Assembly: GCA_902599805.1 (NCBI GenBank)
Contig: CACKGP010000001.1
Span: forward strand, 62,001 to 126,000
DNA: 64,000 nucleotides
Source: an uncultured Pelagibacteraceae bacterium
Lineage (GTDB): Bacteria; Pseudomonadota; Alphaproteobacteria; Pelagibacterales; Pelagibacteraceae
Direction: 5' to 3'
The position numbers and the translations under genes were made by a program. Below the pieces are notes generated by a model that was not told the DNA's origin, made no database searches, and saw only the letters and a program-made list of their open reading frames with translations. Shown here piece after piece: positions 3,248 to 23,864 of this stretch (position 1 is its first letter; each line of letters starts with the position of its first letter).

Positions 3248-3253
3248 GAGTAA

Positions 3254-3281: not shown

Positions 3282-3289
3282 GTTTTTTT

Positions 3290-4222: not shown

Positions 4223-4452
4223 TTTTGTTCCTCAGTAGTTAATGCTAGGGCATGAAGCTCATTACCCATTTTACCTTTCAAAGCTTTATATACCATTTTA
4301 TGCTGTTCAACTCTAGATTTACCATTAAAAACTTTTGAGATTATTTTTGCTGAATAGTGATTGTTATCTCCCATTGTATCTTTCAACTCAAGAGATGCGT
4401 CTGGGAAAGCGCTCATAATCATTTTTGATATTTCATCTTTAGTTAATGGCAT
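4219..4452 (-). CDS. bolA: BolA family protein
   Basis: 77 aa, small for the family. The BolA KH-like fold is recognised by [24 protein letters not shown] (about 32-55) and the C-terminal ELHALALTT motif. BolA proteins partner with monothiol glutaredoxins in Fe-S cluster trafficking, and the partner is encoded next with a 4-base overlap. It overlaps the 3' end of purL by 14 bases. The length and lack of a Cys loop fit the BolA2/YrbA-like subtype rather than full-length E. coli BolA. Confidence 0.9.
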
Positions 4453-6631: not shown

Positions 6632-6632
6632 T

Positions 6633-7310
6633 TTAATTCATTAAACTCAAAAAAAGCGGAAGACCATCCTCATTAGAACATGTTTTATCAACCATTCTCT
6701 CGGGATGAGGCATCATACCTAGAATATTTTTATTTTTATTAAAAATTCCAGCTATATTATTTATAGAACCATTTGGATTTGTTTTTTGGTTTATATTTCC
6801 CTCTTTATCACAATACTTTATAGGTATTAAATCATTGTCTTCCAACTCATTTAAATGTTTTTTATCAGTAAAAAAATTACCTTCATTATGAGCTATATTG
6901 AGTTCTAATATTTCATTTTTTTTATATTTGTTAAAAAACTTATTTTTATTTGATTGAATTTTTATAAAAATATTTTTTGATATAAATTTCAAACCTGAAT
7001 TTCTTAAAAGTGCACCTTTCAAAAGACCACATTCAATGAGAATTTGGAAACCATTGCAAATACCAAGTATTAAAGACCCACGCTCTCCAGCCTTTATTAC
7101 TTCATTTAATATATTTGATTTAGCAGCTATGGCGCCAGATCTAAGATAATCACCGTACGAAAAACCTCCAGGAACAACAATAAGATCTGATTTTGGCAGG
7201 ACGTTTTCTTTATGCCATATCATAGAGTTTTTAAATTGTAATTTTTCTAACGCAACTGCTACGTCCCTATCACAATTTGATCCAGGAAAAACTATAACTG
7301 ATGATTTCAT
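6633..7310 (-). CDS. purQ: Phosphoribosylformylglycinamidine synthase, glutaminase subunit PurQ
   Basis: 225 aa class I glutamine amidotransferase. It hydrolyses glutamine and channels ammonia to PurL. The nucleophile is C85 in [10 protein letters not shown]; the oxyanion segment [18 protein letters not shown] is at about 47-63, and the His-Glu dyad is in GMMPHPERM near the C-terminus. It lies 1 base upstream of purL and overlaps purS by 4 bases (ATGA-type junction). Normal length. Confidence 0.97.
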
Positions 7311-7549
7311 TCTGTTTTACTAATTTTAAAATCCTCAATGATTTGATTAACCAATAGTTTTTCACACATTTCTTTAACTTGATTATGTGCTTTGGAAGAG
7401 TCTTTTTCCTTTAAATCAATTTCAAAAAACTTTCCTTGTCTAACTTGACTTAGATTATTCATACCCATATTTTTTAAAGTTTGACTTACTACTTTACCCT
7501 GAGGATCTAGTACATCTTTTTTCAAAGTGACTGTTACTGCAAATTTCAA
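7307..7549 (-). CDS. purS: Phosphoribosylformylglycinamidine synthase subunit PurS (TTG start)
   Basis: 80 aa structural subunit that bridges PurL and PurQ. The sequence KFAVTVTLKKDVLDPQGKVV at the N-terminus is the conserved PurS opening. The start is TTG (7549-7547): no ATG lies upstream in frame or close downstream, and family alignment begins exactly here. TTG lies one base after the purC stop, so low-efficiency initiation may be compensated by reinitiation from purC. Confidence 0.94.
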   Translation of the reverse strand: MKFAVTVTLKKDVLDPQGKVVSQTLKNMGMNNLSQVRQGKFFEIDLKEKDSSKAHNQVKEMCEKLLVNQIIEDFKISKTE

Positions 7550-7550
7550 T

Positions 7551-8336
7551 TTATCTTTTTTTTATATTTATCGATGTAGGTTTTTTAAAATTTACTTCAC
7601 TAACATTGGTTGTTTCCGGAACTATACCAAGTCTTCTAGCAACTTCTTGGTAAGCTTGAATTATATTTCCTAAATCTTTTCTAAATCTGTCTTTATCTAA
7701 TTTTTTTTCACTTTTAATATCCCAAAGTCTACAAGTATCAGGGCTAATTTCGTCAGCAAGTATGACTTCTTTCTGATCGTTATTCCAAATTCTTCCAAAT
7801 TCCAATTTAAAGTCCACAAGTTTTATGCCTATACCTCGAAACATTCCTGACATAAAATCGTTAATTCTAAAAGTCATTTCCTCAATTATTTTTATTTCCT
7901 CAACAGTTGCCCAATTAAATGCAAATATATGTTCTTTTGCAATGAGGGGATCATCAAGCTCATCTTTTTTGTAACAAAACTCAATTAAAGGATTTTCAAG
8001 AACGGTTCCATCAGTAACACCTAATCTTTTAGTAAGGGACCCTGTAGCGATATTTCTTACGATAACTTCTATAGGTATGATCTCAACAAGCTTTATAAGT
8101 TGTTCTCGCATATTAAGTCTTTTTACCAAATGATTTTTAATACCGACTTGATTTAAATTATTTAAAATGTGCTCTGATATTCGATTGTTTAATACACCTT
8201 TGCCTTCAACTGTAGCTTTTTTTTTATTATTAAAAGCTGTCGCATCGTCTTTGAAATGTTGTATAGCCAAGCCTTTTTCTTTAGTTTCGTAGATTATTTT
8301 GGCTTTTCCTTCGTAAAGTTTTTTACCTTTGTTCAT
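7551..8336 (-). CDS. purC: Phosphoribosylaminoimidazole-succinocarboxamide synthase (SAICAR synthetase)
   Basis: 261 aa. Joins CAIR with aspartate using ATP. Recognised by [13 protein letters not shown] at the N-terminus (phosphate-binding strand), [23 protein letters not shown] (about 85-107), [10 protein letters not shown] and [14 protein letters not shown] (about 190-204). The start ATG overlaps the purB stop by 4 bases. The C-terminus carries a short extension rich in Lys after the usual domain end. Part of the purB-purC-purS-purQ-purL run. Confidence 0.97.
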
Positions 8337-9625
8337 TTTAGTACTCTGTTAAAAATTACATTAATTTTCTTAGTATGATAACCAAAATCAAATAAGTTTT
8401 TTAAATTATTAACAGTTATTATGTCCCTAATTTTTTTATCTTCCATCAAACTATCGTAAAAAGATATATTTTGGTCAATTGCTCTTAGAGCACATTTTTG
8501 TACAATTCTGTAGGCAACTTCCCTTTTAAGTCCCTTTTCAGTAAGAAAAAGCATTACTCTTTGTGAAAAAAATAATCCTTTTGTTAAATCTAAATTTTTT
8601 TTCATATTATTCTTATTTATTTTCATAGAATTAACTACTTCATTCATTCTGTTTAGAGCAAAATCTAGAGTTACAGTTGCATCTGGACCAATATTTCTCT
8701 CAACACTTGAGTGTGAAATATCTCTTTCATGCCACAATGCAACGTTTTCCATCGCGGGTATTACCATTGACCTTATTAATCTTGCTAAACCGGTTAAATT
8801 CTCGCTTAGGACCGGATTTTTTTTATGAGGCATTGCAGATGAACCCATTTGTTTTTTTTTAAAAAACTCATAAACTTCTGCAACTTCTGTTCTTTGTAAA
8901 TTTCGTATCTCGACAGAAAATCTTTCAATAGAACTTGCAATTATACCTAACACTGAAAAGAAATGAGCATGCCTGTCTCTTGGAATAATCTGTGTTGAAA
9001 TTGGTTCAATTTTTAATTTTAATTTGTTCGCAACAAATTTTTCAATTCTTGGATCTATATTTGCAAACGTTCCAACAGCCCCAGAAATTGCACAAGTTGA
9101 AATATCTTCAATAGCTCTTTCAAGTCTTTTTTTATTTCTCAAGAATTCTGCATAATAAGTAAGAAGCTTAAGCCCAAATGTTGTTGGTTCCGCATGAATA
9201 CCATGGCTTCTACCAATACAAAGAGTAAATTTGTGTTTTATAGATTGTTTTTTAATTGCGCTTAATAAATTATCAATATCTTTAAGGAGTATTTCTCCAG
9301 ATTGTTTTAGCTGTAAATTAAAACAAGTATCCAACACATCTGATGACGTCATTCCCTTATGTAAAAATCTTCCCTCTTTTCCTGACCTTTCCATTATGGA
9401 ACTTAGAAAAGCAATCACATCATGTCTAACCTTGCCTTCAATTTTTAAAATTTTTTTTACGTCAATTTTTGATTTAGATTTAACCTTTTTATAAACACCC
9501 TTTGGTATTAGTTTGTATTTTTCCATTGCCAAAGCCGCTGCAAGCTCAATATCTAACCAAATTTTATATCTATTATGATCTTGCCAGATTTTTTTAACTT
9601 CTTCTCTAGAGTATCTTTCTATCAT
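8333..9625 (-). CDS. purB: Adenylosuccinate lyase
   Basis: 430 aa, fumarase/aspartase superfamily. It cleaves SAICAR to AICAR and adenylosuccinate to AMP, with release of fumarate. The superfamily signature is visible as [19 protein letters not shown] (about 261-279); other conserved blocks are [12 protein letters not shown] (about 87-98) and [16 protein letters not shown] (about 137-152). ATG overlaps the map stop by 4 bases. Placement directly before purC means the two steps around SAICAR are translated in tandem. Confidence 0.97.
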
Positions 9626-11115: not shown

Positions 11116-11874
11116 ATGAACAAAAAAAATAAAAAAATTTCTGCTGGTATATTGGTTATTGGAAATGAAATTTTATCTGGTCGAACAATTGATAAAAATA
11201 TTTCATTTTTAGCTCAATGGTTGAATGATAATTTAGGAATTAAAGTTAAAGAAGTAAGAATAGTTCCAGATGAAGAAAGAGAAATTATAAAGAACGTTCT
11301 TTCTTTAAGTAAACAAAACGACTATGTTTTAACCACAGGGGGAATAGGACCAACTCATGATGATATTACTTCTAAATCAATATCAAAAGCATTTAAGAAA
11401 AAATATATTTATCATAATGAAGCTTATAATATTTTATTAAAATATTATGGTGATAAAGATTTTAATGATCCTAGAAAGAAAATGGCGAAAATGCCTAGTG
11501 GCTCAAAATTAATTTTAAACCCAGCTAGTGCCGCACCTGGTTTTATGATCAAAAATGTTATTTGCCTTCCGGGTGTGCCATCAATATTGAGGTCAATGGT
11601 TTATAATTTAAAAAAATATTTAAAACCAGGATCAAAAATATATAGCACAAGTATTTCTACAGTTACTGTTGAAAGTAGTATAGCTAGAGAATTGGAGAGG
11701 GCTCAAAAAAAATACAAAAAGTCTGTAGATATTGGGAGTTATCCATTTTTCAGATTGGGCAAAATAGGTGTATCAATTGTGATTAGATCATCAAATAAAT
11801 TACGACTACAATCTTGCCACAAAACAATTATTAAAATGTTAAACAGGAAAAAAATAAAGATATTTAAAGGTTAA
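11116..11874 (+). CDS. CinA-like molybdopterin-binding domain protein
   Basis: 252 aa. MoCF_biosynth (MoaB/MogA-like) domain typical of the N-terminal half of CinA: ILVIGNEILSGRTIDKN (about 13-29), DYVLTTGGIGPTHDDIT (about 70-86) and PGFMIKNVICLPGVPS (about 142-157). The C-terminal amidase domain of full CinA (nicotinamide-mononucleotide deamidase) is absent, as in a number of alphaproteobacteria. In the family the N-domain may hydrolyse ADP-ribose-type compounds; function here is not certain. First gene of a seven-gene co-directional operon; the stop shares one base with the next ATG. Confidence 0.85.
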   Translation: MNKKNKKISAGILVIGNEILSGRTIDKNISFLAQWLNDNLGIKVKEVRIVPDEEREIIKNVLSLSKQNDYVLTTGGIGPTHDDITSKSISKAFKKKYIYHNEAYNILLKYYGDKDFNDPRKKMAKMPSGSKLILNPASAAPGFMIKNVICLPGVPSILRSMVYNLKKYLKPGSKIYSTSISTVTVESSIARELERAQKKYKKSVDIGSYPFFRLGKIGVSIVIRSSNKLRLQSCHKTIIKMLNRKKIKIFKG

Positions 11875-12302
11875 TGATGTTATATTTTGCTTTCGGTAGT
11901 AATTTAAATCAGAAACAAATGAAAAGGCGATGTAGAGATTCAAAATATATTGGTTGCTACAGTCTTAAAAACTATAAACTCGTTTTTAGAAATTATTTTT
12001 TGGGCGGCGGTGTAGCTGACGTGGAAAAAAAAAACAACAGTAGTGTTTTAGGAGCAATATACAAAATTTCAAAAAAAGATGAGAGAGAACTTGATATTTA
12101 TGAAGATTTTCCAAAAACATATATTAAAAAGTATTTTAGATTACTTGGTAAAAAGGTCATGTTTTATTATATGCCAAAAAAAACAAAGCATGTTCTTCCA
12201 AGCAAAAGATATCTAAATTTAATTATACAGGGTTATAAAGATTGTGGTTATAGAAATAATTACATAGTGATTTCAAAAAATAAAAAAATAAAAGTAAAAT
12301 GA
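11874..12302 (+). CDS. Gamma-glutamylcyclotransferase-like (AIG2/GGCT fold) protein
   Basis: 142 aa. The family opening YFAFGSNL (residues 4-11, glycine-rich substrate loop) is clear, and the acidic active-site region is seen as LGAIYKISKKDERELDIYEDFP (about 58-80; the Glu in DIYEDFP fits the catalytic position). GGCT-fold enzymes release 5-oxoproline from gamma-glutamyl peptides or amines; actual substrate unknown. Two tandem ATGs (11874 and 11877) could both serve; the second gives the usual family start. Overlaps the next gene by 4 bases. Confidence 0.8.
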   Translation: MMLYFAFGSNLNQKQMKRRCRDSKYIGCYSLKNYKLVFRNYFLGGGVADVEKKNNSSVLGAIYKISKKDERELDIYEDFPKTYIKKYFRLLGKKVMFYYMPKKTKHVLPSKRYLNLIIQGYKDCGYRNNYIVISKNKKIKVK

Positions 12303-13195
12303 AAATATTTGATTGTTTTATGTTTTATGACGAAGAAATGTTGTTAGATATTAGATTAAATATTTTGAATAAGTTCGTTGATCAATTTGTTATTGTTGAA
12401 AGTACTTTTACCCACAGTGGTCAAAAAAGAAACTTAGTTTTTGATTTACAAAAATATAAAAAATTTAAAGATAAAATTAAATATTATGTAGTTGAAAAAA
12501 AACCTGACATGGTTGAAACTATTAATTCATATGATACTGATCACGTAAAAGAAAATAAAACAATTATGAATGCAGTCTGGTTTGAAAATTCACAGAGAAA
12601 TGCAATTAATAATTTATTAGGATCTGCTGATGCCAATGACCAAATAATTATCTCTGATGTTGATGAAATTCCCAATTTAGAAAAAGTCAATTTTAAAAAT
12701 ATTAAAACAAAGTTAATTTTATTTAAACAGAAAATGTTTTACTACAAATTTAACCTATTATTAGACAAGATGATTTGGTGTGGATCAAAATCATGTAAAA
12801 AAATCGATCTTATTTCACCACAATGGTTAAGAGAGGTTAAAGATAAAAAATATCCTTTGTGGAGACTCGATACTTACTTTTCAAAAAAAAAATATAATAG
12901 TATTTATTTTGTGGATAATGGTGGATGGCATTTTACAAATATTAAAACACCTGAAGAAATTGATAAAAAATTAAGATCATATCTACATCATCCTGAATAT
13001 GACCAAAGCAATATAGGACCAAAAGATATTGATAAAATGATTAAAGAAAAAAAACCTGTATATGATTTAATGGCAAATTCAAAAGAGTCAAAAGATAGAA
13101 GCCATACAAAACTCAAAATAACAGATTTAAATGAGTTACCTAATTACATTCAAACAAATAAAGAAAAATTTAATCATTGGATACTTAAAAACTAA
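12299..13195 (+). CDS. Glycosyltransferase family 17-like protein
   Basis: 298 aa, cytoplasmic, no signal or membrane segment. The opening IFDCFMFYDEEMLLDIRL and VIVESTFTHSG (32-41) are typical of GT17, the family of beta-1,4-mannosyl-glycoprotein N-acetylglucosaminyltransferases that in bacteria modify surface glycans. The metal/sugar-nucleotide DxD-type motif is SDVDEIP (119-125); GGWHFTNI follows near 207-214. Donor and acceptor unknown. It abuts another glycosyltransferase with no intergenic base, implying joint action. Confidence 0.82.
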   Translation: MKIFDCFMFYDEEMLLDIRLNILNKFVDQFVIVESTFTHSGQKRNLVFDLQKYKKFKDKIKYYVVEKKPDMVETINSYDTDHVKENKTIMNAVWFENSQRNAINNLLGSADANDQIIISDVDEIPNLEKVNFKNIKTKLILFKQKMFYYKFNLLLDKMIWCGSKSCKKIDLISPQWLREVKDKKYPLWRLDTYFSKKKYNSIYFVDNGGWHFTNIKTPEEIDKKLRSYLHHPEYDQSNIGPKDIDKMIKEKKPVYDLMANSKESKDRSHTKLKITDLNELPNYIQTNKEKFNHWILKN

Positions 13196-14110
13196 ATGAA
13201 TTCTAAGGCTATCGTAACTCTAGCAGACTCCAATTATTTTGAATTATTAAATGAATTAATTGATTCTATAAATAAACATGACGATAGCAAAAGTATTTCA
13301 ATCTGTGTTTTAGATGCTGGTTTAACTGACCAACAAAGAAAAGATTTGAAAGGAAAGGTATACGCAATTAAAAAAGCTGAGTGGGATATTAAAGTTCCAG
13401 GATACAAAGTCTTAAAAAAAGAATGGTTAAAAAGCCAAGTCTCTAGAGCTTTTCTTCCAAAATATTTTCCAGAATTTGAAAAATATCTTTGGATAGACTG
13501 CGATGCATGGATAAATTCTTGGTCTGCAGTAAAACTTTACTTTAAAGCATGTGATAATGGAAAATTGGGAATAACACAAAGTATTGGCCCAGGTTATAGA
13601 ATAATGTCAAAAGTTAAATGGTTGTTAGGAAAAGTAGCCATTATAAAATCGCAGAATTATAAACATGCTAAAGCTTCAGGAATTGAAGATGAAATTTCAA
13701 GAAAATTAGCCTTTGCACCACATATTAATATTGGTGTTTTTTCTTTAGAAAAAAATTCTAAATGTTGGGAAGTTTGGCAAAAAAATTTAGAAAAAACTTT
13801 ATCAAAAGGAAAAGTCTTTGGATCAGAAGGTTTAGCAATTAATATTGCTGTTTATCACGATAATGTACCAGTTGAGTTCCTACCTTTAAAATGCAATTGG
13901 ATTACAAGTCATTTGTTACCTAAATACGATATTCAGAACGACACTTTTGTTGAACCTTATCTTCCTAATGACAGAATTGGCATAATTCATTTGGCAGCTG
14001 GTCTTTGGAAGAATAATAAAGATATGAGACTTAATAAAGATATTAAAATTGAATTAAAAACACTAGATGGAAAAACAGTTGATAAAAGTCTCAGATTTGG
14101 AATTAAATAA
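13196..14110 (+). CDS. GT-A fold glycosyltransferase (GT8-like)
   Basis: 304 aa. The Rossmann-like start (AIVTLADSNYFELLNELIDSI), a DxD motif in YLWIDCDAWIN (D101, D103), HINIGVFSLEKNS near 178-190 and HLAAGLWK near 264-271 give the pattern of family 8-like retaining transferases. No transmembrane helix. Substrates cannot be read from sequence. It begins immediately after the stop of the GT17 gene and is 2 bases from the sulfatase-like gene. Confidence 0.75.
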   Translation: MNSKAIVTLADSNYFELLNELIDSINKHDDSKSISICVLDAGLTDQQRKDLKGKVYAIKKAEWDIKVPGYKVLKKEWLKSQVSRAFLPKYFPEFEKYLWIDCDAWINSWSAVKLYFKACDNGKLGITQSIGPGYRIMSKVKWLLGKVAIIKSQNYKHAKASGIEDEISRKLAFAPHINIGVFSLEKNSKCWEVWQKNLEKTLSKGKVFGSEGLAINIAVYHDNVPVEFLPLKCNWITSHLLPKYDIQNDTFVEPYLPNDRIGIIHLAAGLWKNNKDMRLNKDIKIELKTLDGKTVDKSLRFGIK

Positions 14111-14112
14111 AA

Positions 14113-15693
14113 ATGAAGGTAAAAAATATTTTATTTATTATGGCTGATCAATTAAGATGGGATTATCTATCATGTTATGGCCATCCACACTTACAAACAA
14201 AAAACATTGATAGTCTAGCTAAAAAAAGTGTGTTATTTGAATCTGCTTACGTGCAATCACCAGTTTGTGGTCCATCAAGAGCTTCTTATTATACTGGCAG
14301 AACAGTTTTCAGTCATGGTTCAACTTGGAATCAAGTTCCCCTTCCAATTGGAGAGTTAACAATTGGTGACTACTTAAGAAAATCAGGAATAAGAACTGGA
14401 ATTGTTGGTAAGACACATATGAAGCCTGATGCAGAAGGTATGGCACGTCTTGGTATTAATAAAGATACAGAAATCGGTTTGATTGTAAGTGAACCAGGTT
14501 TTGAGCCTTATGAAAGAGACGATGGTCTTCACCCAAATAACCATGTTAAAAAATATAAAAAAAAATTATCCTACAATGAATGGCTGAATAAACTTGGTTA
14601 CGATGGAGATAATCCATGGGACAGTTGGGCTAATTCTGCTGAAGGAAAGAATGGCGAATTACTTAGCGGCTGGAAATTAAGAAACTCAAATAAACCTGCA
14701 AGAATTTCAGAAAAACATTCTGAAACTGCTTTCATGACCAATAGAGCCATGGAGTTTATAGAGGACAGTTCTGATAAGCCTTGGTTTTTACATTTATCCT
14801 ATATCAAACCACATTGGCCTTACATTGCCCCAGCCCCATATCACAATATGTTTTCTCAAAATCAGTTTAATCAAGTTCAAAGAAATGAGAAACAAAAAGA
14901 AAATATGAATCCAGTTTATAAAGCTTTTGTAGAAACGAGAGTCTCGAAAACTTTTTCAAAAGACGAGGTTAGAAATACAGTTATGTCAGGTTATATGGGA
15001 TTAATCAAACAAATTGATGATAACCTAGGTAGACTTTTTGATTTCCTTGAAAAAAAAGGAAACATGAAAGACACAATGATAATTTTTACATCTGATCACG
15101 GTGATTATCTTGGAGACCATTGGTTAGGAGATAAAGAATTATTTCATGAACAAATAGTAAAAGTTCCAATGATTATTTATGACCCAAGGGAAATGGCTAA
15201 CAAAACTAGAGGGAAAAAAGAAAAACGTTTTGTCGAAGCAATTGATCTTTTACCCACTTTTCTAGATGCGGTCGGAAGTAAAGAAAGCAAACACAGACTA
15301 GAAGGTAATTCTTTAATACCCTTAATAAATGCTGATAAAATTGATAATTGGAAAGATGCGGTATTTAGTGAAATTGATTATTCATTTAATGAAGCTAGAA
15401 AGATACTTAATTTAGGAGCTTCAGACGCACGAGGATATATGATTAGAAATAACGAATGGAAATATATTTATTTTAAAAGTTTTCCACCTCAGCTATTTAA
15501 TTTAAAAAATGATCCGGAGGAATTTGAAGATTTAGGTCAGTCCAAAGATTATTCTAAAGTAAGAAATGAGATGAAAGAGTTATTACTTAAAAAATTAGTA
15601 AGTAGGAAAAATAGAGTTTCAGCTTCTGATGAGTTTGTTTTAAAGGATAGAGATTATACAAAAGAGGATGATATAATGATTGGAGTTTGGTAA
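14113..15693 (+). CDS. Sulfatase / phosphonate monoester hydrolase-type enzyme
   Basis: 526 aa, alkaline phosphatase superfamily, no signal peptide, so probably cytoplasmic. The formylglycine motif C-x-P-S-R is present with C52 (VCGPSRAS, 51-58). Metal ligands: D12 (MADQLRWD), D328 and H329 (TSDHGDYLGDH); substrate-binding K100/H102 (GKTHMKP), H234 (KPHWP), K341. Cys at position 52 means a formylglycine-generating enzyme must act on it; none is in this window. The N-terminal pattern and lack of signal are close to phosphonate/phosphodiester monoester hydrolases as well as choline- or aryl-sulfatases, so substrate is open. Confidence 0.85.
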   Translation: MKVKNILFIMADQLRWDYLSCYGHPHLQTKNIDSLAKKSVLFESAYVQSPVCGPSRASYYTGRTVFSHGSTWNQVPLPIGELTIGDYLRKSGIRTGIVGKTHMKPDAEGMARLGINKDTEIGLIVSEPGFEPYERDDGLHPNNHVKKYKKKLSYNEWLNKLGYDGDNPWDSWANSAEGKNGELLSGWKLRNSNKPARISEKHSETAFMTNRAMEFIEDSSDKPWFLHLSYIKPHWPYIAPAPYHNMFSQNQFNQVQRNEKQKENMNPVYKAFVETRVSKTFSKDEVRNTVMSGYMGLIKQIDDNLGRLFDFLEKKGNMKDTMIIFTSDHGDYLGDHWLGDKELFHEQIVKVPMIIYDPREMANKTRGKKEKRFVEAIDLLPTFLDAVGSKESKHRLEGNSLIPLINADKIDNWKDAVFSEIDYSFNEARKILNLGASDARGYMIRNNEWKYIYFKSFPPQLFNLKNDPEEFEDLGQSKDYSKVRNEMKELLLKKLVSRKNRVSASDEFVLKDRDYTKEDDIMIGVW

Positions 15694-15695
15694 TA

Positions 15696-16532
15696 ATGAG
15701 TAAAGTAGAAATTAGTAAAATTATTGATCCAATTCCTGCTTCAGATGGAGCTGGCGTTAAATTAAAAAGAAGTATTGGTGTTGAGCCAAATTATTTTGAT
15801 CCATTCTTAATGTTAGATGAATTTGGTTCAGAAAATAAAGACGACTATGTTGCAGGATTCCCAGCTCATCCGCACAGAGGTATCGAAACGGTTACATATA
15901 TGTTGGCTGGTGAATTTGAACACAAAGATAGCACCGGTGGAAAAGGACGAATGACTGCAGGCGATGTTCAATGGATGAAAACAGGTAGTGGAATAATTCA
16001 CTCTGAAATGCCCGCAATGAAAGAGGGTAGACTACATGGCTTTCAGCTTTGGATAAATATGCCAGCAAAATATAAAATGAATAAACCTGAATATATTTAT
16101 ATAGACTCAAAAAAAATGAGCATTCACAAAGATGAAGATAAACAAGTAAAAGTTATTGCAGGTAAATTTGAAAAAGCAGAAGGACCAGTCAAAAAACACA
16201 ATGTTGAACCAATATATTTTGATGTTGAATTAAATGAAAATAAATATTTTAAATTTAAATTACCCAAAACAAACAATTCATTTATTTATTTGATCGAAGG
16301 TGAAATTAAAATTGGTGAAAAGGAACACAAACAAACAAAAGACTCTACACTAATTTTATTAGATAAAGGCGAGGATTTAAAAGTTTCAGCAACTTCAAAA
16401 GCTAAATTTCTATTGATATCAGGAAAACCAATTGGCGAACAAATTGCTAGAGGTGGACCATTTGTAATGAATACAAAAGCTGAAATTCAGCAAGCTATAG
16501 AAGATTATCATAGCGGAACTTTCGTAAAATAA
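15696..16532 (+). CDS. Pirin family protein (cupin)
   Basis: 278 aa from the ATG at 15696, three bases after the sulfatase stop; an upstream in-frame TTG (15687) overlaps the sulfatase gene and is not preferred. The bicupin N-domain has the full metal set of pirins: H58, H60 (FPAHPHRG), H102 and E104 (GIIHSEMP), plus the FQLWINMP block. Bacterial pirins are iron proteins; some, such as E. coli YhhW, oxidise the flavonol quercetin. Physiological role here unknown; proximity to aromatic-catabolic genes is noted but not proof. Confidence 0.9.
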   Translation: MSKVEISKIIDPIPASDGAGVKLKRSIGVEPNYFDPFLMLDEFGSENKDDYVAGFPAHPHRGIETVTYMLAGEFEHKDSTGGKGRMTAGDVQWMKTGSGIIHSEMPAMKEGRLHGFQLWINMPAKYKMNKPEYIYIDSKKMSIHKDEDKQVKVIAGKFEKAEGPVKKHNVEPIYFDVELNENKYFKFKLPKTNNSFIYLIEGEIKIGEKEHKQTKDSTLILLDKGEDLKVSATSKAKFLLISGKPIGEQIARGGPFVMNTKAEIQQAIEDYHSGTFVK

Positions 16533-16535
16533 ATT

Positions 16536-16862
16536 ATGTGCCCAATTTGTTGGATTAGTGGTTTTGTAGCTGCCTTACTTGGTGGCTCAATGATAGCTGT
16601 AGTAAATCATCCTATTTCGTGGGCAATAAGTATTATTTTGATAGTATATGCGGTTTATAAATTCTATGAGTCACGAAAAAGAGGTTTAAAAATGAACGAT
16701 GAAACCAAAGCTAGGAACAGAAAAACTATTTTTAGATTTATACAAGGTGTTGTACTTGGATCATTTGTGACTGCTGCAGTTTTTTATAGCTTAACTTATA
16801 AAGAACACGAAAGAATGCACGATTTATTAGAGCAACACGGTATAGAGAAACACGAACACTAA
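16536..16862 (+). CDS. Small membrane protein of unknown function
   Basis: 108 aa, not recognised. Two hydrophobic segments (about 6-23 and 28-43) and a third (about 68-86) are separated by a basic/charged linker. The N-terminus has a Cys pair (C2, C5: CPIC), and the C-terminal 18 residues hold five histidines (91, 95, 101, 106, 108) with many Glu. This arrangement could bind a metal at the membrane, but no family is identified. Last gene of the cinA-to-pirin operon (3-base gap from pirin); its stop overlaps convergent dctM by 4 bases. Confidence 0.7.
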   Translation: MCPICWISGFVAALLGGSMIAVVNHPISWAISIILIVYAVYKFYESRKRGLKMNDETKARNRKTIFRFIQGVVLGSFVTAAVFYSLTYKEHERMHDLLEQHGIEKHEH

Positions 16863-18169
16863 GACATCATTAAACTTGGAAGAAACAAACATATTGCAGG
16901 AAATGCAATAATAAGTGCAAGTCTAATCATATCAGTAAATAAAAAAGGAAGCGTTCCAAACCAAATTGTTTGAAGTGGAGTTTTTTGCATTACACCTTTA
17001 ATAACAAACAAATTCATTCCAACTGGAGGAGAAATTAAACCAAATTCAACAACTATTACAGCGAATATACCAAACCATATTGGATCTATTCCTGCATCAG
17101 CAATTACAGGGTAAAAAACTGGTATTGTTAAAAATAACATAGCAAGAGAATCCATTACTGTTCCAAGCACTAAGTATATTGCACAAATAACAAGAATTAT
17201 TCCAACCTGACTTAATTGTAAGTCGTTAATAAAATCAACCACGGTAAAAGGTAATTGTGTAACAGTTATCAAAACATTAAATACTGCAGCACCTACTACT
17301 ATAAGATAAAGTGCTCCAACAGTTTTAATTGTATCCCAGACTGAATTTTTCAACATTTCCAAAGTTAATTGTCGTCTTAAAAAAATAAAAATTAAAACAA
17401 GTATCACACCTACAGCAGCACTCTCTGTTGCGGTAAAAAATCCTAAATAAAGTCCACCCATGATAATTGCAAAAATTAAAAATATTGGAAAAACTTTCCA
17501 TAAAGCAGCTACTCTTTCTTTAAATGGCATTTTATTTCCGTAACCACCTTGGTCAGGATAAATTAAAAGATAAACACGTATAGCAACCATATAAAGTACA
17601 ACAGCTATTAAACCTGGTATTAATGCAGCGAAGAAAAGTTTTTGAACGGATTGTTCTGTTAGATAGGCATATATAACTAAAATGACACTTGGTGGGATTA
17701 TTATTCCTAAAGTCCCACCAGATGCGATCGATCCACTTATCAACGCATCACTGTAACCATGTCTTCTCATTTCTGGGGCTGCCATTTGAGACATTGTTGC
17801 TGCGGTTGCAATTGAAGAACCACAAATCATTCCAAATCCAGCACAGGCACCAACAGTTGACATTGCAAGGCCACCCTTATAGTGACCAACTATTGCATAT
17901 GCAGCGTCATAAAGATTTCTAGAAAGGTTTGCTCTATTTGCAAGATTACCCATTAAAACAAAGAAAGGTAAAACTGATAAACTATATTTTGATACAGCTT
18001 CATATGGTGCCGTTCCTAAAATAAAAAAAGCTTGTTCAAAACCAACTATGAAACCAAATCCAGTGAAACCTACTATCAGCATTGAAATTCCAATTGGAAT
18101 ATTAAGTGCCATTAAAATTAGAACAGCTAAAAAAGCTAAAGCACCGTTTACTATTGGATCAAAACTCAT
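16859..18169 (-). CDS. dctM: TRAP transporter large permease subunit (DctM)
   Basis: 436 aa, about 12 hydrophobic segments across the full length, ending with the family block EFGLISPPVGMNLFVIKG (about 372-389), the best DctM signature. Other marks are the GSSIATAATMSQMAAPEM motif (about 116-133) and GGTLGIIIPPSVILVIYA (about 151-168). TRAP systems use an ion gradient and a periplasmic binding protein to import organic acids. Its partner DctQ lies just upstream with a 4-base overlap; the binding protein gene is on the other strand at 19.6 kb. Confidence 0.96.
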   Translation of the reverse strand: MSFDPIVNGALAFLAVLILMALNIPIGISMLIVGFTGFGFIVGFEQAFFILGTAPYEAVSKYSLSVLPFFVLMGNLANRANLSRNLYDAAYAIVGHYKGGLAMSTVGACAGFGMICGSSIATAATMSQMAAPEMRRHGYSDALISGSIASGGTLGIIIPPSVILVIYAYLTEQSVQKLFFAALIPGLIAVVLYMVAIRVYLLIYPDQGGYGNKMPFKERVAALWKVFPIFLIFAIIMGGLYLGFFTATESAAVGVILVLIFIFLRRQLTLEMLKNSVWDTIKTVGALYLIVVGAAVFNVLITVTQLPFTVVDFINDLQLSQVGIILVICAIYLVLGTVMDSLAMLFLTIPVFYPVIADAGIDPIWFGIFAVIVVEFGLISPPVGMNLFVIKGVMQKTPLQTIWFGTLPFLFTDMIRLALIIAFPAICLFLPSLMMS

Positions 18170-18645
18170 TTACTATTTCTCTCTGTTATAGATTGAATAA
18201 ACCAAAGTATTATTGCTAAAACACTTAACCACATTGCTATAGCTGTTGCGAAATAGAACGGATAAAAACTTAATTCCAGATCAATTGTAACTCTCTTGTT
18301 TTCAAAAAAAGCAAATGCTTCTTTTGTGGTACCGTATGCAACAAATGACATTATTATTAACATCAAAATAAATCTGAAAATTTTAATAAAAGTTTGTAAT
18401 TTAGAAATAGCAATGTTTTTTATAAAATCAGCTGATACATGATCATTTAAAAAAAAAGCTCGAGGCATTGCAAGAAATGCAACTAATGCAATACCAAATT
18501 CTACAATTTCTATTGTACCTGCAACGGGTGAATTTAAAAAACGTCTTCCAAAAACATCGCAAAAAGTAAGTATAGCTAAAGAGAATAAAATCAGTCCAGA
18601 TATTATTGCTGCATAGTCAAAAATTTTATTTATTTTAATTTGCAT
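18166..18645 (-). CDS. dctQ: TRAP transporter small permease subunit (DctQ)
   Basis: 159 aa, four hydrophobic segments (about 9-31, 44-61, 85-105, 126-149), the usual DctQ topology. FCDVFGRRFLNSPVAGTIEIVEFGIA (about 28-53) matches the conserved start of the second helix pair. DctQ is the obligatory small membrane partner of DctM. Divergent from the FAH-family gene at 18.7 kb with a 53-base spacer that must hold both promoters. Confidence 0.93.
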   Translation of the reverse strand: MQIKINKIFDYAAIISGLILFSLAILTFCDVFGRRFLNSPVAGTIEIVEFGIALVAFLAMPRAFFLNDHVSADFIKNIAISKLQTFIKIFRFILMLIIMSFVAYGTTKEAFAFFENKRVTIDLELSFYPFYFATAIAMWLSVLAIILWFIQSITERNSK

Positions 18646-18698: not shown

Positions 18699-19550
18699 AT
18701 GAAATTTGTTTCTTTTTTGCTTAAAGGCCAGCCAAAATTCGGTATTTCTAATGGAAATAATATCACAGATCTAACAGGTAAAATTAAAGGAGCACAGACT
18801 TTAAAAGAGCTTATATCGAATAAATCATTACAAGAGGCCAAAGATTTTTCAAAAAAAAATCCAGGAAAAATAAATTATAATGAAATCGAGTACCTGCCAG
18901 TAATTCCAAATCCTGGAAAAATAGTTTGTGTTGGCCTTAATTATAGTGAACATGTTAAAGAAACTGGAAGAACTGTAGAACAAAACCCTGTAATCTTTTT
19001 AAGAGTTCCTGAAAGTCAAACTGCACACAAACAACCAATTCAAAGACCAAAGGTATCAGAAAGCTTAGACTACGAGTGTGAGATGGCTGTAATAATGGGT
19101 GATGCTGGTAAACACATAAAACCTGAAAACGCTCTTAAACATATAGTGGGTTATTCTTGTTATAATGAATGTACTGTTAGAGAGTGGCAACAACATACAA
19201 GACAATTTGGAATGGGAAAAAATTTTGAAAGAACAGGAAGCTTTGGACCTCATATGATTTTAGCTGAGAACATCCCAGACTACACAAAATTATCAATTCA
19301 AACTCGTTTGAATGGAACAGTTATGCAAAGTGCAAAATTGAGCCAATTAATTTTTGATATACCTAGCTTAATTACTTACGTCTCTAAGGCTATACCTTGG
19401 AGAGCAGGGGATGTTCTAGTAACAGGAACTCCTGGAGGAGTAGGATTTAAGAGAAAACCACCTATTTTTATGAAAGATGGGGATAAAGTTGAGGTAGAGA
19501 TCTCAGAAATTGGGATACTTTCAAACATAATTAAGGATGAAAAAATCTAA
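18699..19550 (+). CDS. Fumarylacetoacetate hydrolase (FAH) family protein
   Basis: 283 aa. Typical FAH superfamily core: KIVCVGLNYSEHVKETG (about 72-88), LDYECEMAVIMG with two metal-binding Glu (about 122-133), SCYNECTVREWQQHTRQFGMGKNF (about 150-173) and VLVTGTPGGVGFKRKPP near 246-262. Members hydrolyse or decarboxylate 2,4-dioxo or dienoate acids from aromatic breakdown (fumarylpyruvate hydrolase, HHDD isomerase, hydratases). The third metal ligand, usually Asp, appears as Glu. Position between TRAP genes and ring-cleavage genes suggests it handles a meta-cleavage product. Confidence 0.9.
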   Translation: MKFVSFLLKGQPKFGISNGNNITDLTGKIKGAQTLKELISNKSLQEAKDFSKKNPGKINYNEIEYLPVIPNPGKIVCVGLNYSEHVKETGRTVEQNPVIFLRVPESQTAHKQPIQRPKVSESLDYECEMAVIMGDAGKHIKPENALKHIVGYSCYNECTVREWQQHTRQFGMGKNFERTGSFGPHMILAENIPDYTKLSIQTRLNGTVMQSAKLSQLIFDIPSLITYVSKAIPWRAGDVLVTGTPGGVGFKRKPPIFMKDGDKVEVEISEIGILSNIIKDEKI

Positions 19551-19596: not shown

Positions 19597-20613
19597 ATGA
19601 TTAAGAAAAAACTTATTGGTTTTTTGTTTGGAGTTTTCTCTTTAAGTTTATTTAGCTCAGCATCTGCTACTGAACTTAAATTGGCAACTTTCGAACCACC
19701 AAAAGCCTTCATCGCTAGTAAAATACTAGGAGCGTGGGCTGAAAAAGTTAATACGTGTGCAAATGGTAAACTAAATGTAAAAATGTATGCTGGTGGAGTT
19801 CTAGGTAGCCCACCTAAGCAATACGACATAGTTACAAAAGGTGTTGCTGATATTTCATGGACTGTTTTAGGTTACATTGGAGGTCAGTTCCCTTTAAGTT
19901 CAGTAATAGAACTTCCATTTTTAACAAGAACATCTGCAGCAGGATCAACTGCTTTAAATACATTATATGATGAAGGATATCTTGATAAAGAAATGTCAGG
20001 AATTCATTTGATCGGGTTACATTCAAATCCTGGTTATCAAATTCATATGAAAAATACTAAAGTTATGGATCCATCAGACTTTAAAGGAAAAAAAATGAGA
20101 GTTCCTAGTAAAATCGCAGGAACTATTCTTAAGACTTTAGGTGCTACTGGAGTAAAAGTTCCAGCGCCTGGTACTTACGAAGCTCTTAACAAAGGTGTCT
20201 TAGACGGAACACCTTTTCCTTATACAGCTGTAGGTTCATTTAAATTATTTGAAGTTACGAAATATCACACTGAAGTGAATATCACTAACGCTACTTTTGG
20301 ATTGATAATGAATAAAGACAAATACAAAAGTTTAGACTCGGTACAAAAAAAATGTATTGATAAGTTTAGTGGTCATGCCTTTAGTGGTTGGGCTTCAAAT
20401 TTAATTGATAGACAAAATGAAAAAATGAAAGAAGTTGTTGCAAATACTCCAGGTCATGAGATTGCAGTTGCTTCTCCAGCTGTTATTGCCAAGTATAAAA
20501 AAATACTTAAACCTATCGAAAAAGATTGGTTAGCAGAAATGAAAGGCAAAGGTCTTGATGGTGCTGGTGTGCTAAAAAGAGCCAGACAAATCATTAAGAA
20601 AATAGACGGCTAA
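19597..20613 (+). CDS. dctP: TRAP transporter substrate-binding protein (DctP family)
   Basis: 338 aa with a Sec signal peptide: basic MIKKK, hydrophobic core to about 20, predicted cut after SSASA (residue 24). Mature protein follows the DctP pattern: LKLATFEPPKAFIASKIL, GKLNVKMYAGGVLGSPPKQYDIVTKGVADISW (about 57-88), FKGKKMRVPSK and ATGVKVPAPGTYEALNKGVLDG with the carboxylate-binding Arg region (about 160-205). A GGGGG run lies just before the start. It supplies DctQM encoded divergently. Followed by a strong hairpin terminator, which would let this binding protein be made in excess. Confidence 0.95.
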   Translation: MIKKKLIGFLFGVFSLSLFSSASATELKLATFEPPKAFIASKILGAWAEKVNTCANGKLNVKMYAGGVLGSPPKQYDIVTKGVADISWTVLGYIGGQFPLSSVIELPFLTRTSAAGSTALNTLYDEGYLDKEMSGIHLIGLHSNPGYQIHMKNTKVMDPSDFKGKKMRVPSKIAGTILKTLGATGVKVPAPGTYEALNKGVLDGTPFPYTAVGSFKLFEVTKYHTEVNITNATFGLIMNKDKYKSLDSVQKKCIDKFSGHAFSGWASNLIDRQNEKMKEVVANTPGHEIAVASPAVIAKYKKILKPIEKDWLAEMKGKGLDGAGVLKRARQIIKKIDG

Positions 20614-20680: not shown

Positions 20681-21655
20681 ATGGCAGTTTCGGCATTAAG
20701 CTATATAGGTGTAAACTCAGACAAAATTGACGATTGGTCTGACTATTCTGAAAAATGTTTGGGTATGCAAAAAATTGATAGAGGCAAAGGGTCTTTATCT
20801 TTTAGAATGGACGATCACAAACAGAGACTAGCGATTACTGGTGACACCGGAGACAGTTTGGCTTTCGTAGGCTTTGAGGTTGATAAAAAAGAGGATCTTC
20901 AAACTTATGCAGCGAAGTTAGAGTCTAAAAATATAAAAGTTACTTTAGGTAATTCTTCCTATTCAGATAAAAGATTTGTTCAAGAACTAATTCATTTTAA
21001 TGATCCACAAGGTAACAGAGTCGAATTAGTTTTTAATCCAATGAAAGACACTGAACCATTTAAACCATCAAGACCAATTTCTGGATTTAAAACAGGAGCA
21101 TTGGGTATGGGCCATGTGGTTTTACATGTCAAAGATTTTAACAAAGTGGTTCCTTTTTATAGAGATATTCTTGGTTTCAAAATTAGTGATTACAGTAATA
21201 CACCAATCTCATTATGTTTTTTTCACATTAATGGTCGTCACCACAGCCTAGCTTTATTTGGTTCGGGAAAAATTGGTTTTCACCATTTTATGGTTGAGTA
21301 CAATAGTCTAGATGATGTTGGGCAAGGTTATGATTTAGTACAATATAAAGATAATGCTATCGCATACACAATGGGTCGTCATACAAATGATTACATGACA
21401 TCTTTTTATTCTATAACACCATCTGGTTTTTTTGTAGAAAATGGATGGGGAGGAAGAATTATTGACCCAAGTACATGGAAATCACACGAAACTTTTGAAG
21501 GCCCAAGTTTTTGGGGGCACGAAAGACTTTATCTTCCAGATGACGAAAGGATGAAGTTTAGAAATAAAAGACTAGATACTGCTGCAAAAGGGAAGCAGGC
21601 ACCATTGTTAGTTGACTGCCCCTGGCTATATTCAAAAATTAATAAGAAAAAATAA
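20681..21655 (+). CDS. Type I extradiol ring-cleavage dioxygenase (VOC, BphC-like)
   Basis: 324 aa, two tandem VOC domains (about 6-120 and 143-265), as in 2,3-dihydroxybiphenyl / catechol 2,3-dioxygenases. All active-site residues of that class can be aligned: iron ligands H145 (GMGHVVLHV), H202 (FHHFMVEYNSLDDVG) and E253 (FFVENGWG), second-sphere H188 region (GRHHS), H234 (GRHTND) and Y243 (SFYSITP). It should open a catechol next to the hydroxyls (meta cleavage) using Fe(II) and O2. The natural catechol is unknown. Sixteen bases separate it from the FAD hydroxylase gene, the natural preceding step. Confidence 0.9.
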   Translation: MAVSALSYIGVNSDKIDDWSDYSEKCLGMQKIDRGKGSLSFRMDDHKQRLAITGDTGDSLAFVGFEVDKKEDLQTYAAKLESKNIKVTLGNSSYSDKRFVQELIHFNDPQGNRVELVFNPMKDTEPFKPSRPISGFKTGALGMGHVVLHVKDFNKVVPFYRDILGFKISDYSNTPISLCFFHINGRHHSLALFGSGKIGFHHFMVEYNSLDDVGQGYDLVQYKDNAIAYTMGRHTNDYMTSFYSITPSGFFVENGWGGRIIDPSTWKSHETFEGPSFWGHERLYLPDDERMKFRNKRLDTAAKGKQAPLLVDCPWLYSKINKKK

Positions 21656-21670
21656 TATTAATTTTAATTA

Positions 21671-23113
21671 ATGAAACATTACGATGTTATAATTGTAGGC
21701 TTAGGTCCAACAGGTGGTACCTTAGCAAATTTATTAGCTCTAAATGGATTTTCAATTTTAATTTTAGAAAGAGAAAAAAATTTATACGCATTACCTAGAG
21801 CAGTTCATTTTGACGATGAAATTATGAGGGTTTTTCAAACTATAGGTATCACAAAAAAATTTTTAAAAAATACTATAATCAACAAAGGTACAAAATTTGT
21901 TAATTCCGAAGGAAAAATATTACTTGATTGGCCCCGTCCAAAAGCAATAACTGAAAATGGATGGTATCCAAGCTATAGGTTTCACCAGCCAGATTTAGAG
22001 AGACATCTACGTAATCGACTCAAAACTTTTAAAAAGGTAAGACTCTTGCAAAATACGGAAGTAATCAAAATTAAAAATAATAAAAACTTTGTTGATTTAT
22101 TTTTCAAAAGAAAAAATAAAACACAAAAGGTTTCTTCAAAGTATGTAATTGGTTGTGATGGAGCAAGATCTACCACAAGAGAACAGATGGGTTCAGTTTT
22201 GGATAATTTAGGTTTTACTCAAAAGTGGGCTGTGGTTGACTTAATATTGAGAAAAAATAAAAATAAATTACCAGATAGAACTATTCAATATTCTAACTCA
22301 GAAAGACCAGCAACCTATTGTAGAAATGTTGGTAAAAGAAGAAGATGGGAGTTTGCTATTCAGGATAATGAAAATGAGAAAGAAATTTTATCTGACAAAT
22401 ACATTTGGAATTTTCTTAAACCTTGGCTTAACGAAAAAGAAGCTTATTTAGAAAGAAAAGCAATTTATATTTTCCAGTCTGCTATAGCTAGAAAATGGAG
22501 AAAGGGTAGAATTTTTATTGCCGGTGATGCTGCACACCTAATGCCACCATTTATGGGACAAGGTATGTGTGCTGGTATCAGAGATGCATCAAATCTGGCT
22601 TGGAAAATAAGTTGGTGTATTAATAACAAACATGATGAAAAATTTTTAGACACTTATCAAACAGAAAGATTTTCAAACGCAAAAGAGTATATTGAGACAA
22701 CAATGAGAATGGGAGAGTTTGTTAATGCAGTAGGGACTGATAATATTACTGATAATATCTCTTCTGGGCCTGATGGCACAAAAAGTATGCAATCGATTAA
22801 ACCTAAATTGGGAATTGGCCTTGGAAGTAACAAAGATAAAAACAGGGGTAAAATTTTTCCTCAACTTAGAATGAAAAATGGTAAAACTTTAGATGAAAAA
22901 TTTTCAAAATCCCCTTTATTACTCACATCATCTAAATTAGCAAAAAAAGTTTCTTTAAAAATACAGTCAATTACAGACAAAGACATTAGAGGGCTTAGCG
23001 ACTTATTAAAAACCTATAAAGCTAAAGCATTAATTGTTCGCCCAGATAGGTTTATTCTTAAAACATGTAATTCAGCAAATGACTTTAATCGAATAAATTA
23101 TTTGCCGCTTTAA
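21671..23113 (+). CDS. FAD-dependent aromatic hydroxylase, MhpA-like
   Basis: 480 aa class A flavoprotein monooxygenase. Motifs in order: GxGxxG dinucleotide site (VGLGPTGGTLANLLA, about 9-23), YALPRAVHFDDEIMRVFQTIG as in 3-(3-hydroxyphenyl)propionate hydroxylase (about 41-61), the DG motif YVIGCDGARSTTR (about 158-170), and the GD motif GRIFIAGDAAHLMPPFMGQGM (about 278-298). It would add an ortho hydroxyl to a phenol using NAD(P)H and O2. Shorter than E. coli MhpA (about 550), mostly in the C-terminal part. Its 3' end overlaps convergent BKACE gene by 29 bases. Confidence 0.88.
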   Translation: MKHYDVIIVGLGPTGGTLANLLALNGFSILILEREKNLYALPRAVHFDDEIMRVFQTIGITKKFLKNTIINKGTKFVNSEGKILLDWPRPKAITENGWYPSYRFHQPDLERHLRNRLKTFKKVRLLQNTEVIKIKNNKNFVDLFFKRKNKTQKVSSKYVIGCDGARSTTREQMGSVLDNLGFTQKWAVVDLILRKNKNKLPDRTIQYSNSERPATYCRNVGKRRRWEFAIQDNENEKEILSDKYIWNFLKPWLNEKEAYLERKAIYIFQSAIARKWRKGRIFIAGDAAHLMPPFMGQGMCAGIRDASNLAWKISWCINNKHDEKFLDTYQTERFSNAKEYIETTMRMGEFVNAVGTDNITDNISSGPDGTKSMQSIKPKLGIGLGSNKDKNRGKIFPQLRMKNGKTLDEKFSKSPLLLTSSKLAKKVSLKIQSITDKDIRGLSDLLKTYKAKALIVRPDRFILKTCNSANDFNRINYLPL

Positions 23114-23864
23114 CTTTTGTTTCATTATTAGGAGCTATATTTCCATCTGGCAATAAAAAAGAATTTTCAAAACCAACTCTGATTTTACCACCAAGTTTTA
23201 TTGCAGTTTCTAGACAAGAAATTTCCTCTTTTGCAAATGCACATACTGCCCAGTCAGCATTAAATTCATTTTCTCTAAGTTTTTGAGTAAACAAAGAAAT
23301 TTTTTTGGGATTACTTATTTTTCCAGTGTAATGTCCTATTACAAACATGCACCATACACCATCCTTAGAAATCTTACATTGAGTCAAAAGATTTGATAAT
23401 AGATCTATATCTTCTGGTTCATAACAAATGTGTTGAATTTTAGTACCAGCTTCAGTTAATTTTTGGTAAATTTTTATGTCTTCACTTTTTGGTAATCTCG
23501 ATGGAATCATTTCTCTTATACCAATTGAAATACCAGGAGGTAAAACATCGTAAGCAAGCTTTCGCATTTCCTCTGGAGAATATTTTCCAATAGCCTCAGT
23601 TGTAATTTGCAAATGCATCTTTGGAACTTTTTTTTGAAGCTCACTCAAAGTTTCTTTACATAAACCACTATCTAAAACATGCTCACCTTTATTATTTCTT
23701 GTATGGAAATGAATCGCCTCTGCTCCAGCTTTGAAGCAGGCTTCTCCTGTTTTAACAATTTCATTTATAGTTATAGGAACTGCCGCATGATCTTTTTTCA
23801 TTGGCCTTGCGCCATTAGGTGCAACCATTAATCGTGGTAAATTATCTGGTTTATAAAAATTCAC
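23085..23864 (-). CDS. BKACE family (3-keto-5-aminohexanoate cleavage-like) enzyme
   Basis: 259 aa TIM-barrel. GTG start, supported by the usual opening LPRLMVAPNGARPMKKDH. Zinc ligands are seen in EAIHFHTRNNKGEH (His-x-His, about 49-62) and the late ligand region GGKIRVGFENSF (about 224-235); ITTEAIG is the strand 3 motif. BKACE enzymes condense a beta-keto acid with acetyl-CoA to give acetoacetate and a new CoA thioester. Substrate is not predictable by eye. It is opposite to the hydroxylase, sharing 29 bases at the 3' ends, so it may or may not belong to the aromatic route. Confidence 0.86.
   Translation of the reverse strand: MNFYKPDNLPRLMVAPNGARPMKKDHAAVPITINEIVKTGEACFKAGAEAIHFHTRNNKGEHVLDSGLCKETLSELQKKVPKMHLQITTEAIGKYSPEEMRKLAYDVLPPGISIGIREMIPSRLPKSEDIKIYQKLTEAGTKIQHICYEPEDIDLLSNLLTQCKISKDGVWCMFVIGHYTGKISNPKKISLFTQKLRENEFNADWAVCAFAKEEISCLETAIKLGGKIRVGFENSFLLPDGNIAPNNETKVKAANNLFD

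Follow-up and report, generated by a model that had tools for sequence, protein, structure and literature searches.

3-(3-Hydroxyphenyl)propionate is handled by the mhp and hpp pathways, in which an MhpA-type hydroxylase acts first and extradiol cleavage follows. PMC3610893 presents TarPQM as a tripartite ATP-independent periplasmic (TRAP) transporter of aromatic acids, and PMC12442348 describes a pca cluster in Roseobacter that is separated by 159 bp from TRAP transporter genes. The arylsulfatases SpAS1 and SpAS2 correspond to structures 4upi and 4upl, respectively, according to PMC5870055 and PMC12421950. Here we analyse a 64,000-nucleotide stretch of DNA (hereafter the window; positions 62,001 to 126,000 of contig CACKGP010000001.1, assembly GCA_902599805.1) from an uncultured SAR11 bacterium of the Pelagibacteraceae, whose draft genome comprises 0.91 Mb and is 76% complete. 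The window encodes a sulfatase-family hydrolase, and we consider it likely that this is a cytoplasmic arylsulfatase of the SpAS type which opens an eight-gene catabolic cassette. The compound that the cassette would import and degrade is most likely a sulfated aromatic acid. A preliminary description of the window had instead joined the hydrolase to two glycosyltransferases in a seven-gene operon thought to make or turn over a decorated glycan or ester. The genes of the cassette, together with the codon of the catalytic cysteine, are as follows.

14113..15693, plus strand: putative SpAS-type arylsulfatase, 526 amino acids, first cassette gene (Pfam Sulfatase 184.6 bits)
14266..14268, plus strand: TGT codon of Cys52, the residue turned into formylglycine in class I sulfatases (cysteine in all 81 SAR11 and gammaproteobacterial sequences)
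16859..18169, minus strand: DctM, TRAP large permease (Pfam DctM 313.2 bits; TIGR00786 310.2 bits, above cut-off)
18166..18645, minus strand: DctQ, TRAP small permease (Pfam DctQ 53.1 bits, cut-off 28.3)
18699..19550, plus strand: FAH-family enzyme (Pfam FAA_hydrolase 204.6 bits; nearest solved structures 8sky and 6iym)
19597..20613, plus strand: DctP, TRAP solute-binding protein (NF037995 TRAP_S1 106.6 bits, cut-off 50)
20681..21655, plus strand: extradiol ring-cleavage dioxygenase, BphC type (Pfam Glyoxalase 86.5 bits, BphC_D1 43.5 bits)
21671..23113, plus strand: MhpA-type FAD phenol/hydroxyphenylpropionate hydroxylase (subfamily model NF004829 514 bits, cut-off 390; FAD_binding_3 200.9 bits)
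23085..23864, minus strand: BKACE (beta-keto-acid cleavage enzyme), last cassette gene (Pfam BKACE 154.2 bits)

DctP, DctQ and DctM are thus encoded side by side with a ring hydroxylase and a ring-cleaving dioxygenase, which is the content of a TRAP-linked aromatic catabolic cluster. The dioxygenase scores 260.5 bits against TIGR03213 (cut-off 366) and aligns over its full length with 1han, the nearest solved BphC, retaining two histidines and one glutamate that we take to be the iron ligands. A search for solved relatives of the MhpA-type hydroxylase at E <= 1e-30 returned none, and the FAH-family enzyme is a probable hydrolase or isomerase of the ring-cleavage product. DctP retains the KMR motif, whose arginine binds a carboxylate in this family; therefore, the ligand probably carries an acid group. 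Its nearest solved structures are 7nr2, 5i5p, 5iga, 5im2 and 7nsw, and we assume that 7nr2 and 7nsw, like 7nrr and 7nqg, are structures of TarP. We confirmed on this point only that a TarP structure paper exists (Bisson et al. 2022).

Linkage was followed in two genome sets that have several genomes in common. The searches with the sulfatase, the PF03781 profile, the Sulfatase domain, MhpA and GT17 each covered 147 SAR11-family genomes, which we take to be one sample because settings and genome handles agree. The second set consists of the best 80 of 327 sulfatase relatives, 79 of them labelled Pelagibacteraceae and one a gammaproteobacterium. Close relatives of the sulfatase (77-100% identity) occur in 18 of the 147 genomes, the window's own included; this genus, with 30 genomes in the sample, accounts for 16 of them and the 117 other genomes for two, and one further genome (G130) holds only distant relatives at 30-32% identity. 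The genes for DctM, DctQ, the FAH-family enzyme and DctP adjoin the sulfatase gene in all 17 fetched SAR11 relatives, and 16 of these continue to the dioxygenase, MhpA and BKACE, the remaining one (L033) stopping at a contig edge. Results from the 80 loci were similar, with dctM present in 78, dctQ in 73, dctP and the FAH gene in 71 each, the dioxygenase gene in 70, that of MhpA in 67 and that of BKACE in 61. The two loci that lack dctM retain only 398 and 571 bases of contig, and they are among 19 loci lacking BKACE, every one of which stops at a contig end. All 61 loci that extend as far as BKACE retain the gene order; in the gammaproteobacterial one, two genes are inverted. The MhpA gene (E <= 1e-120) is found in 19 of the 147 genomes, namely all 18 with the sulfatase and G067, where the match reaches base 129461 of a 129462-base contig, so that the contig ends inside the gene; elsewhere in this draft, which is 82% complete, no sulfatase was found. 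When 398 genomes were searched phylum-wide with the sulfatase, 22 had a match at E <= 1e-170, among which the window's genome alone exceeded 54% identity.

The surroundings of the cassette are less constant. As judged by eye, the genes upstream of the sulfatase comprise the glycosyltransferase block seen here, purH/rpe-like genes, suf and glutamine-synthetase-like genes, DUF1800/DUF1501-like genes or an AprA/sulfonate-like region. The last of these lies in G069 (L047, reverse complement, 1565-8916) and appears to hold AprA/B, sulfolactate lyase and Xsc before the cassette, resembling a sulfonate-degradation region. Beyond the BKACE gene lies phosphofructokinase in this window and elsewhere, again by eye, UbiH-like and hemE-like, tig/clpP-like or urease-like genes. 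The neighbours vary at both ends, and therefore we regard the segment that begins with the sulfatase gene and ends with the BKACE gene as the unit (about 9.7 kb in this genome); it is conserved and has apparently been moved about between genomic sites. One of the 80 loci, L131, lies on the contig labelled gammaproteobacterial. Its sulfatase shares 72% identity with that of the window, and the gene order is the same, with sulfatase and BKACE genes each inverted so that two divergent same-strand rows result, dctQ-dctM-sulfatase (dctM-sulfatase gap 24 bp) and FAH-dctP-dioxygenase-MhpA-BKACE. The link between the sulfatase and the TRAP and aromatic genes withstands this rearrangement. A glutathione-transferase-family gene follows BKACE in this contig (265-969), with weak similarity to maleylacetoacetate isomerase (45.9 bits, below cut-off); no relative of it was seen in the other compared loci, the majority of which have little contig left beyond the BKACE gene.

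Sulfatase relatives at E <= 1e-100 were also detected in 54 other alphaproteobacterial genomes, and 20 of these loci (48-56% identity) were examined. dctM is adjacent in four: in L179 and L186 it precedes the sulfatase reading frame on the same strand, at distances of 15 and 26 bp, and in L185 and L191 the two genes are convergent, and a fifth locus (L173) has TRAP genes about 4 kb away. The presence of dctM beside the sulfatase in some alphaproteobacteria therefore indicates that the pairing of a signal-less sulfatase with a TRAP importer extends beyond SAR11.

Analysis of the hydrolase itself points to an enzyme of the SpAS1/SpAS2 type. It carries CGPSR at residues 52-56, and its N-terminus, MKVKNILFIMADQ, has no signal peptide as read by eye from the sequence; therefore, its substrate should be an ester that the cell has imported. 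The preliminary description had reached the same view of what it correctly placed as a CxPSR hydrolase of the arylsulfatase and phosphonate monoester hydrolase (PMH) group. Among solved relatives the best are 4upi (578.7 bits) and 4upl (569.1 bits), followed by the PMHs 2vqr (231.9 bits) and 2w8s (224 bits) and by the choline-sulfatase entries 6fny and 7oz8 (117-124 bits). As judged by scores and not by a tree, the hydrolase is thus closer to SpAS1 and SpAS2 than to PMHs, choline sulfatases or other arylsulfatases, the classes that had been proposed for comparison. A choline sulfatase identity was rejected on scores and residues, model TIGR03417 giving 208.5 bits where its cut-off is 433. The hydrolase is accordingly predicted, from its sequence, to be a cytoplasmic arylsulfatase that would hydrolyse aryl sulfates. 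Ten active-site residues (D12, Q13, C52, R56, K100, H102, H227, D328, H329 and K341) are unchanged in all 81 SAR11 and gammaproteobacterial sequences, the window's included, and in all 24 alphaproteobacterial sequences extracted out of 29; P54 is replaced by A or S in six of these 24, and N73 is invariant in 18/18. The sulfatase is under purifying selection, with dN of 0.014-0.12 and dS of 0.35-2.65 in four pairs (L053, L057, L062 and L117) and a dN of 0.128 with saturated dS for L063. This calculation used 79 of the 80 sequences and gave no values for L131; eight sequences were one codon out of register and showed valine at 'position 52', where the residue alignment has cysteine in all, so the values for L121 were ignored.

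The genes suggest a pathway whose step order, like its substrate, is predicted. DctP and DctQM would import a sulfated phenolic acid, and the sulfatase would strip the sulfate in the cytoplasm, releasing the phenol. The MhpA-type enzyme would then put on an ortho hydroxyl, the dioxygenase would open the ring in meta fashion, and the FAH-family enzyme and BKACE would cleave the ring-opened product towards central metabolites. To our knowledge SAR11 lacks assimilatory sulfate reduction, and therefore the prize should be carbon rather than the released sulfate. Few bacterial groups are as abundant as SAR11, whose members are regarded as feeders on simple, labile molecules. If the proposal is right, sulfated aromatics would be an added class of SAR11 substrate, the presence of a sulfatase in a streamlined genome would be explained, and SAR11 would be linked to phenolic sulfates from marine producers. 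Among open-licence papers, we found none that describes a SAR11 sulfatase/aromatic/TRAP cassette in its title or the start of its abstract.

The row of genes from which the preliminary description started was confirmed as seven plus-strand open reading frames at the reported positions, with gaps of -1, -4, 0, +2, +2 and +3 bases, so its account of tight packing was accurate. Its family labels stand for the six frames that match Pfam above cut-off (in the front block, MoCF/CinA N-terminal 110.8, GGACT 36.3, GT17 74.2 and GT8 35.5 bits) and the small membrane protein has only a sub-threshold TauE match. Apart from the sulfatase, the row comprises the following.

11116..14110, plus strand: front block (CinA/FLAD1-like, GGCT-like, GT17, GT8), separate from and outside the cassette
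11116-11874, plus strand: CinA frame
11874-12302, plus strand: GGCT frame
12299-13195, plus strand: GT17 frame
13196-14110, plus strand: GT8 frame
15696..16532, plus strand: pirin (cupin), accessory (Pfam Pirin 122.9 bits; in 13/17 fetched relatives and 9/80 loci); ATG at 15696, where the frame-calling program starts at a TTG at 15687
16536..16862, plus strand: small membrane protein, 108 amino acids, accessory (TauE 21.5 bits, below the cut-off of 32.6; in 9/17 and 6/80 loci)

Given its sub-threshold similarity to TauE, a sulfite exporter, the small membrane protein might export sulfate or sulfite. Other genes occupy the interval between sulfatase and dctM elsewhere. L041 (11681-12679, on the reverse complement of the locus) has an extra 332-residue protein, SGNH-hydrolase-like by eye, between pirin and dctM, and L042 has a gap of similar size at that site. 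A GFA-like (L046), a PhyH-like (L063) and a ROK-like (L067) gene were recognised by eye between sulfatase and dctM, and L090 and L113 encode a 114-residue membrane protein there.

Reading the row as a single operon, in which GT17, GT8 and the hydrolase would work on one product so as to build or trim a surface glycan bearing sulfate or phosphate, draws on the close spacing on one strand in this window and on its retention in eight of the 17 fetched relatives. We nevertheless consider it very improbable. The CinA-GGCT-GT17-GT8 block is absent upstream of the sulfatase in eight others (the seventeenth, L036, has no GT8 within its 0.9 kb of upstream contig) and is present in only five of the 80 loci (L055, one of the 75 without, has only 0.9 kb upstream). 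Where the block is missing, in these eight and L036 and in the 75, the hydrolase keeps its TRAP and aromatic genes. The steady partners of the hydrolase therefore lie downstream, just outside the noted row, and the convergent TRAP transporter and the ring-cleavage genes stay linked without the glycosyltransferases, contrary to the supposed joint action on a decorated glycan. GT17 relatives (E <= 1e-40) are moreover found in 98 of the 147 genomes, mostly without the sulfatase, compared with 18 for the sulfatase, and the hydrolase lacks the signal peptide. The seven-gene row is not one evolutionary unit, and in this genome the sulfatase may be co-transcribed with the front block. A different proposal would make the hydrolase a PMH or phosphodiesterase that supplies phosphorus and sits in the cassette by chance. 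SAR11 is often phosphorus-limited, and the best NCBIfam match is PehA at 335.2 bits; the cut-off of that model is 900, however, and the scores of 579/569 bits for SpAS1/2 far exceed the 232/224 bits for the PMHs. The hydrolase has GKTHM where 2vqr has GYTTT, placing Lys100 and His102, which we take to be arylsulfatase-type residues, where RlPMH has the tyrosine and threonine that we take to be of PMH type. Q13 and D328/H329 are common to the window sulfatase, SpAS2 and the PMHs, and in favour of the proposal Q13 and H329 are PMH-like according to PMC5870055 and PMC12421950. The PehA score and the K100/H102 pair led us to reject a PMH identity, and no phosphorus gene is found among the cassette genes; we judge the phosphorus proposal improbable.

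We consider it unlikely that the imported sulfate ester is non-aromatic or alicyclic (an alkyl or terpenoid sulfate, for instance) and that the oxygenases act on something else. The FAH and BKACE families are broad enough to allow it, but by established chemistry catecholic or phenolic rings are the substrates of BphC-type extradiol dioxygenases and of MhpA-type hydroxylases alike, and PMC5870055 reports no choline-sulfate activity for SpAS1 and SpAS2. Several observations nonetheless count against a cassette for sulfated aromatic acids. The dioxygenase and the FAH-family enzyme reach no NCBIfam equivalog cut-off, FAH-family and BKACE enzymes also take non-aromatic substrates, and inside the cassette there is no regulator and no recognisable aldolase or hydratase. 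SpAS-type enzymes are promiscuous and act on both sulfate and phosphate esters, and a sulfatase without formylglycine may be slow. The cassette is patchy, being absent from 129 of the 147 SAR11-family genomes (14 of the 30 in this genus), many of which are incomplete. None of the 20 alphaproteobacterial loci has a dioxygenase match, and they offer only weak MhpA-like (L175 25%, L180 22%) and FAH-like (L176 27%) similarities; within those 20, the lack of a dioxygenase therefore makes the aromatic link specific to the SAR11/gammaproteobacterial cassette.

The maturation of the sulfatase presents a puzzle. The profile PF03781 of the formylglycine-generating enzyme (FGE) matched neither the window's genome (G000) nor any genome of this genus, and it matched none of 17 of the 18 SAR11 sulfatase genomes, among them drafts that are 92, 95 and 98% complete. 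The eighteenth (G069) has a match in a 409-residue frame that is split in two, with an EgtB-like pattern and size. The preliminary description had named the absence of an FGE together with the loss of active-site residues as the finding that would speak against its proposal; no FGE was found, and every active-site residue is retained. Fifty of the 80 cassette genomes, that of L131 included, were searched with PF03781, and at least seven of them (L053, L054, L057, L058, L060, L062 and L083) overlap the 147-genome set. No match was obtained in 45, and the matches in the other five were rejected as FGE, all being EgtB above the NCBIfam cut-off. The Sulfatase domain (E <= 1e-10) occurs in 34 SAR11 genomes, of which seven have a PF03781 match, G069 and six with other sulfatases. 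PF03781 matches in other SAR11 genera lie in frames of about 226-267 residues. The two examined (L022 1429-2121 and L028 734-1423) encode proteins of about 230 residues with a signal-like N-terminus and without a cysteine pair near the C-terminus, a pair which we understand FGE to carry; the best NCBIfam score of the L022 protein is to EgtB, far below cut-off. From these features we took both not to be FGE, and judging by their N-termini these FGE-sulfatase-domain proteins are probably secreted.

The anaerobic sulfatase-maturating enzyme (anSME) gave a similar result. Model TIGR03942 found nothing above cut-off in 31 genomes of the genus or in 38 sulfatase genomes, the latter having no PF03781 match or only EgtB or EgtB-like ones (G088 and G169 are one genome counted twice). 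Weak matches in 12 of the 31 and 14 of the 38, at most 47.7 bits where 349 are needed, also occur in 12 of 14 control genomes, and from such far-sub-threshold scores we took them to be other radical-SAM proteins. A maturase within the cassette was ruled out in the case of pirin, since only 9/80 loci have it. The puzzle may be wider than SAR11. Among the other alphaproteobacteria, 54 have a sulfatase relative; 48 of these show a PF03781 match, although in some (G277, G399 and G403) it is only a split EgtB-like one, and six show none. Four alphaproteobacterial genomes (G238, G262, G504 and G525; 96-100% complete, 2.9-4.2 Mb) encode an SpAS-type sulfatase without any PF03781 or anSME-model match, and Cys52 is present in the two that were checked, G262 and G238 (L149 and L155).

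The CxPSR cysteine is invariant in the SAR11 sulfatases despite these genomes having no recognised FGE or anSME, and the sulfatase seems to be activated without the known activating enzymes. Either a further maturation route may exist or the cysteine may work unmodified; an FGE too divergent to be detected is a less likely explanation. PMC6189696 (2015) states that E. coli modifies such cysteines by machinery termed unidentified, with reference to Benjdia et al. for a third system, and shows that a choline sulfatase without the modification retains slow turnover. As a tentative extension, which we regard as possible rather than probable, the SAR11 arylsulfatase could be matured by a third formylglycine route, neither FGE nor anSME, as in E. 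coli, and the cassette could make sulfated phenolics of the sunlit ocean a SAR11 carbon source. SAR11 genomes are small (about 1.0-1.4 Mb) and offer few candidate genes; therefore, a third maturation route is testable, and its factor should be findable.

Among described systems, SpAS1 (4UPI) and SpAS2 (4UPL) of Silicibacter (Ruegeria) pomeroyi are homologous to the window sulfatase over nearly its full length and have the same D, Q, R, K, H, DH and K residues; the 4upi chain has the letter A at the cysteine position, which presumably stands for formylglycine. Unlike these enzymes as known from their structures, the window sulfatase sits in a TRAP/aromatic cassette and belongs to genomes in which no FGE was recognised. 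RlPMH and BcPMH (2VQR and 2W8S) share the fold family, Q13 and the DH metal site with it but score only 232/224 bits. TarPQM and other aromatic-acid TRAP transporters likewise combine a three-part TRAP system with neighbouring aromatic catabolism, to which a sulfatase is added here. The mhp and hpp pathways have the MhpA-type hydroxylase and the subsequent extradiol cleavage in common with the cassette, whereas in place of MhpB/C/D/E the cassette encodes a BphC-type class I dioxygenase, an FAH-family enzyme and BKACE, and it carries the sulfatase and the TRAP transporter in addition.

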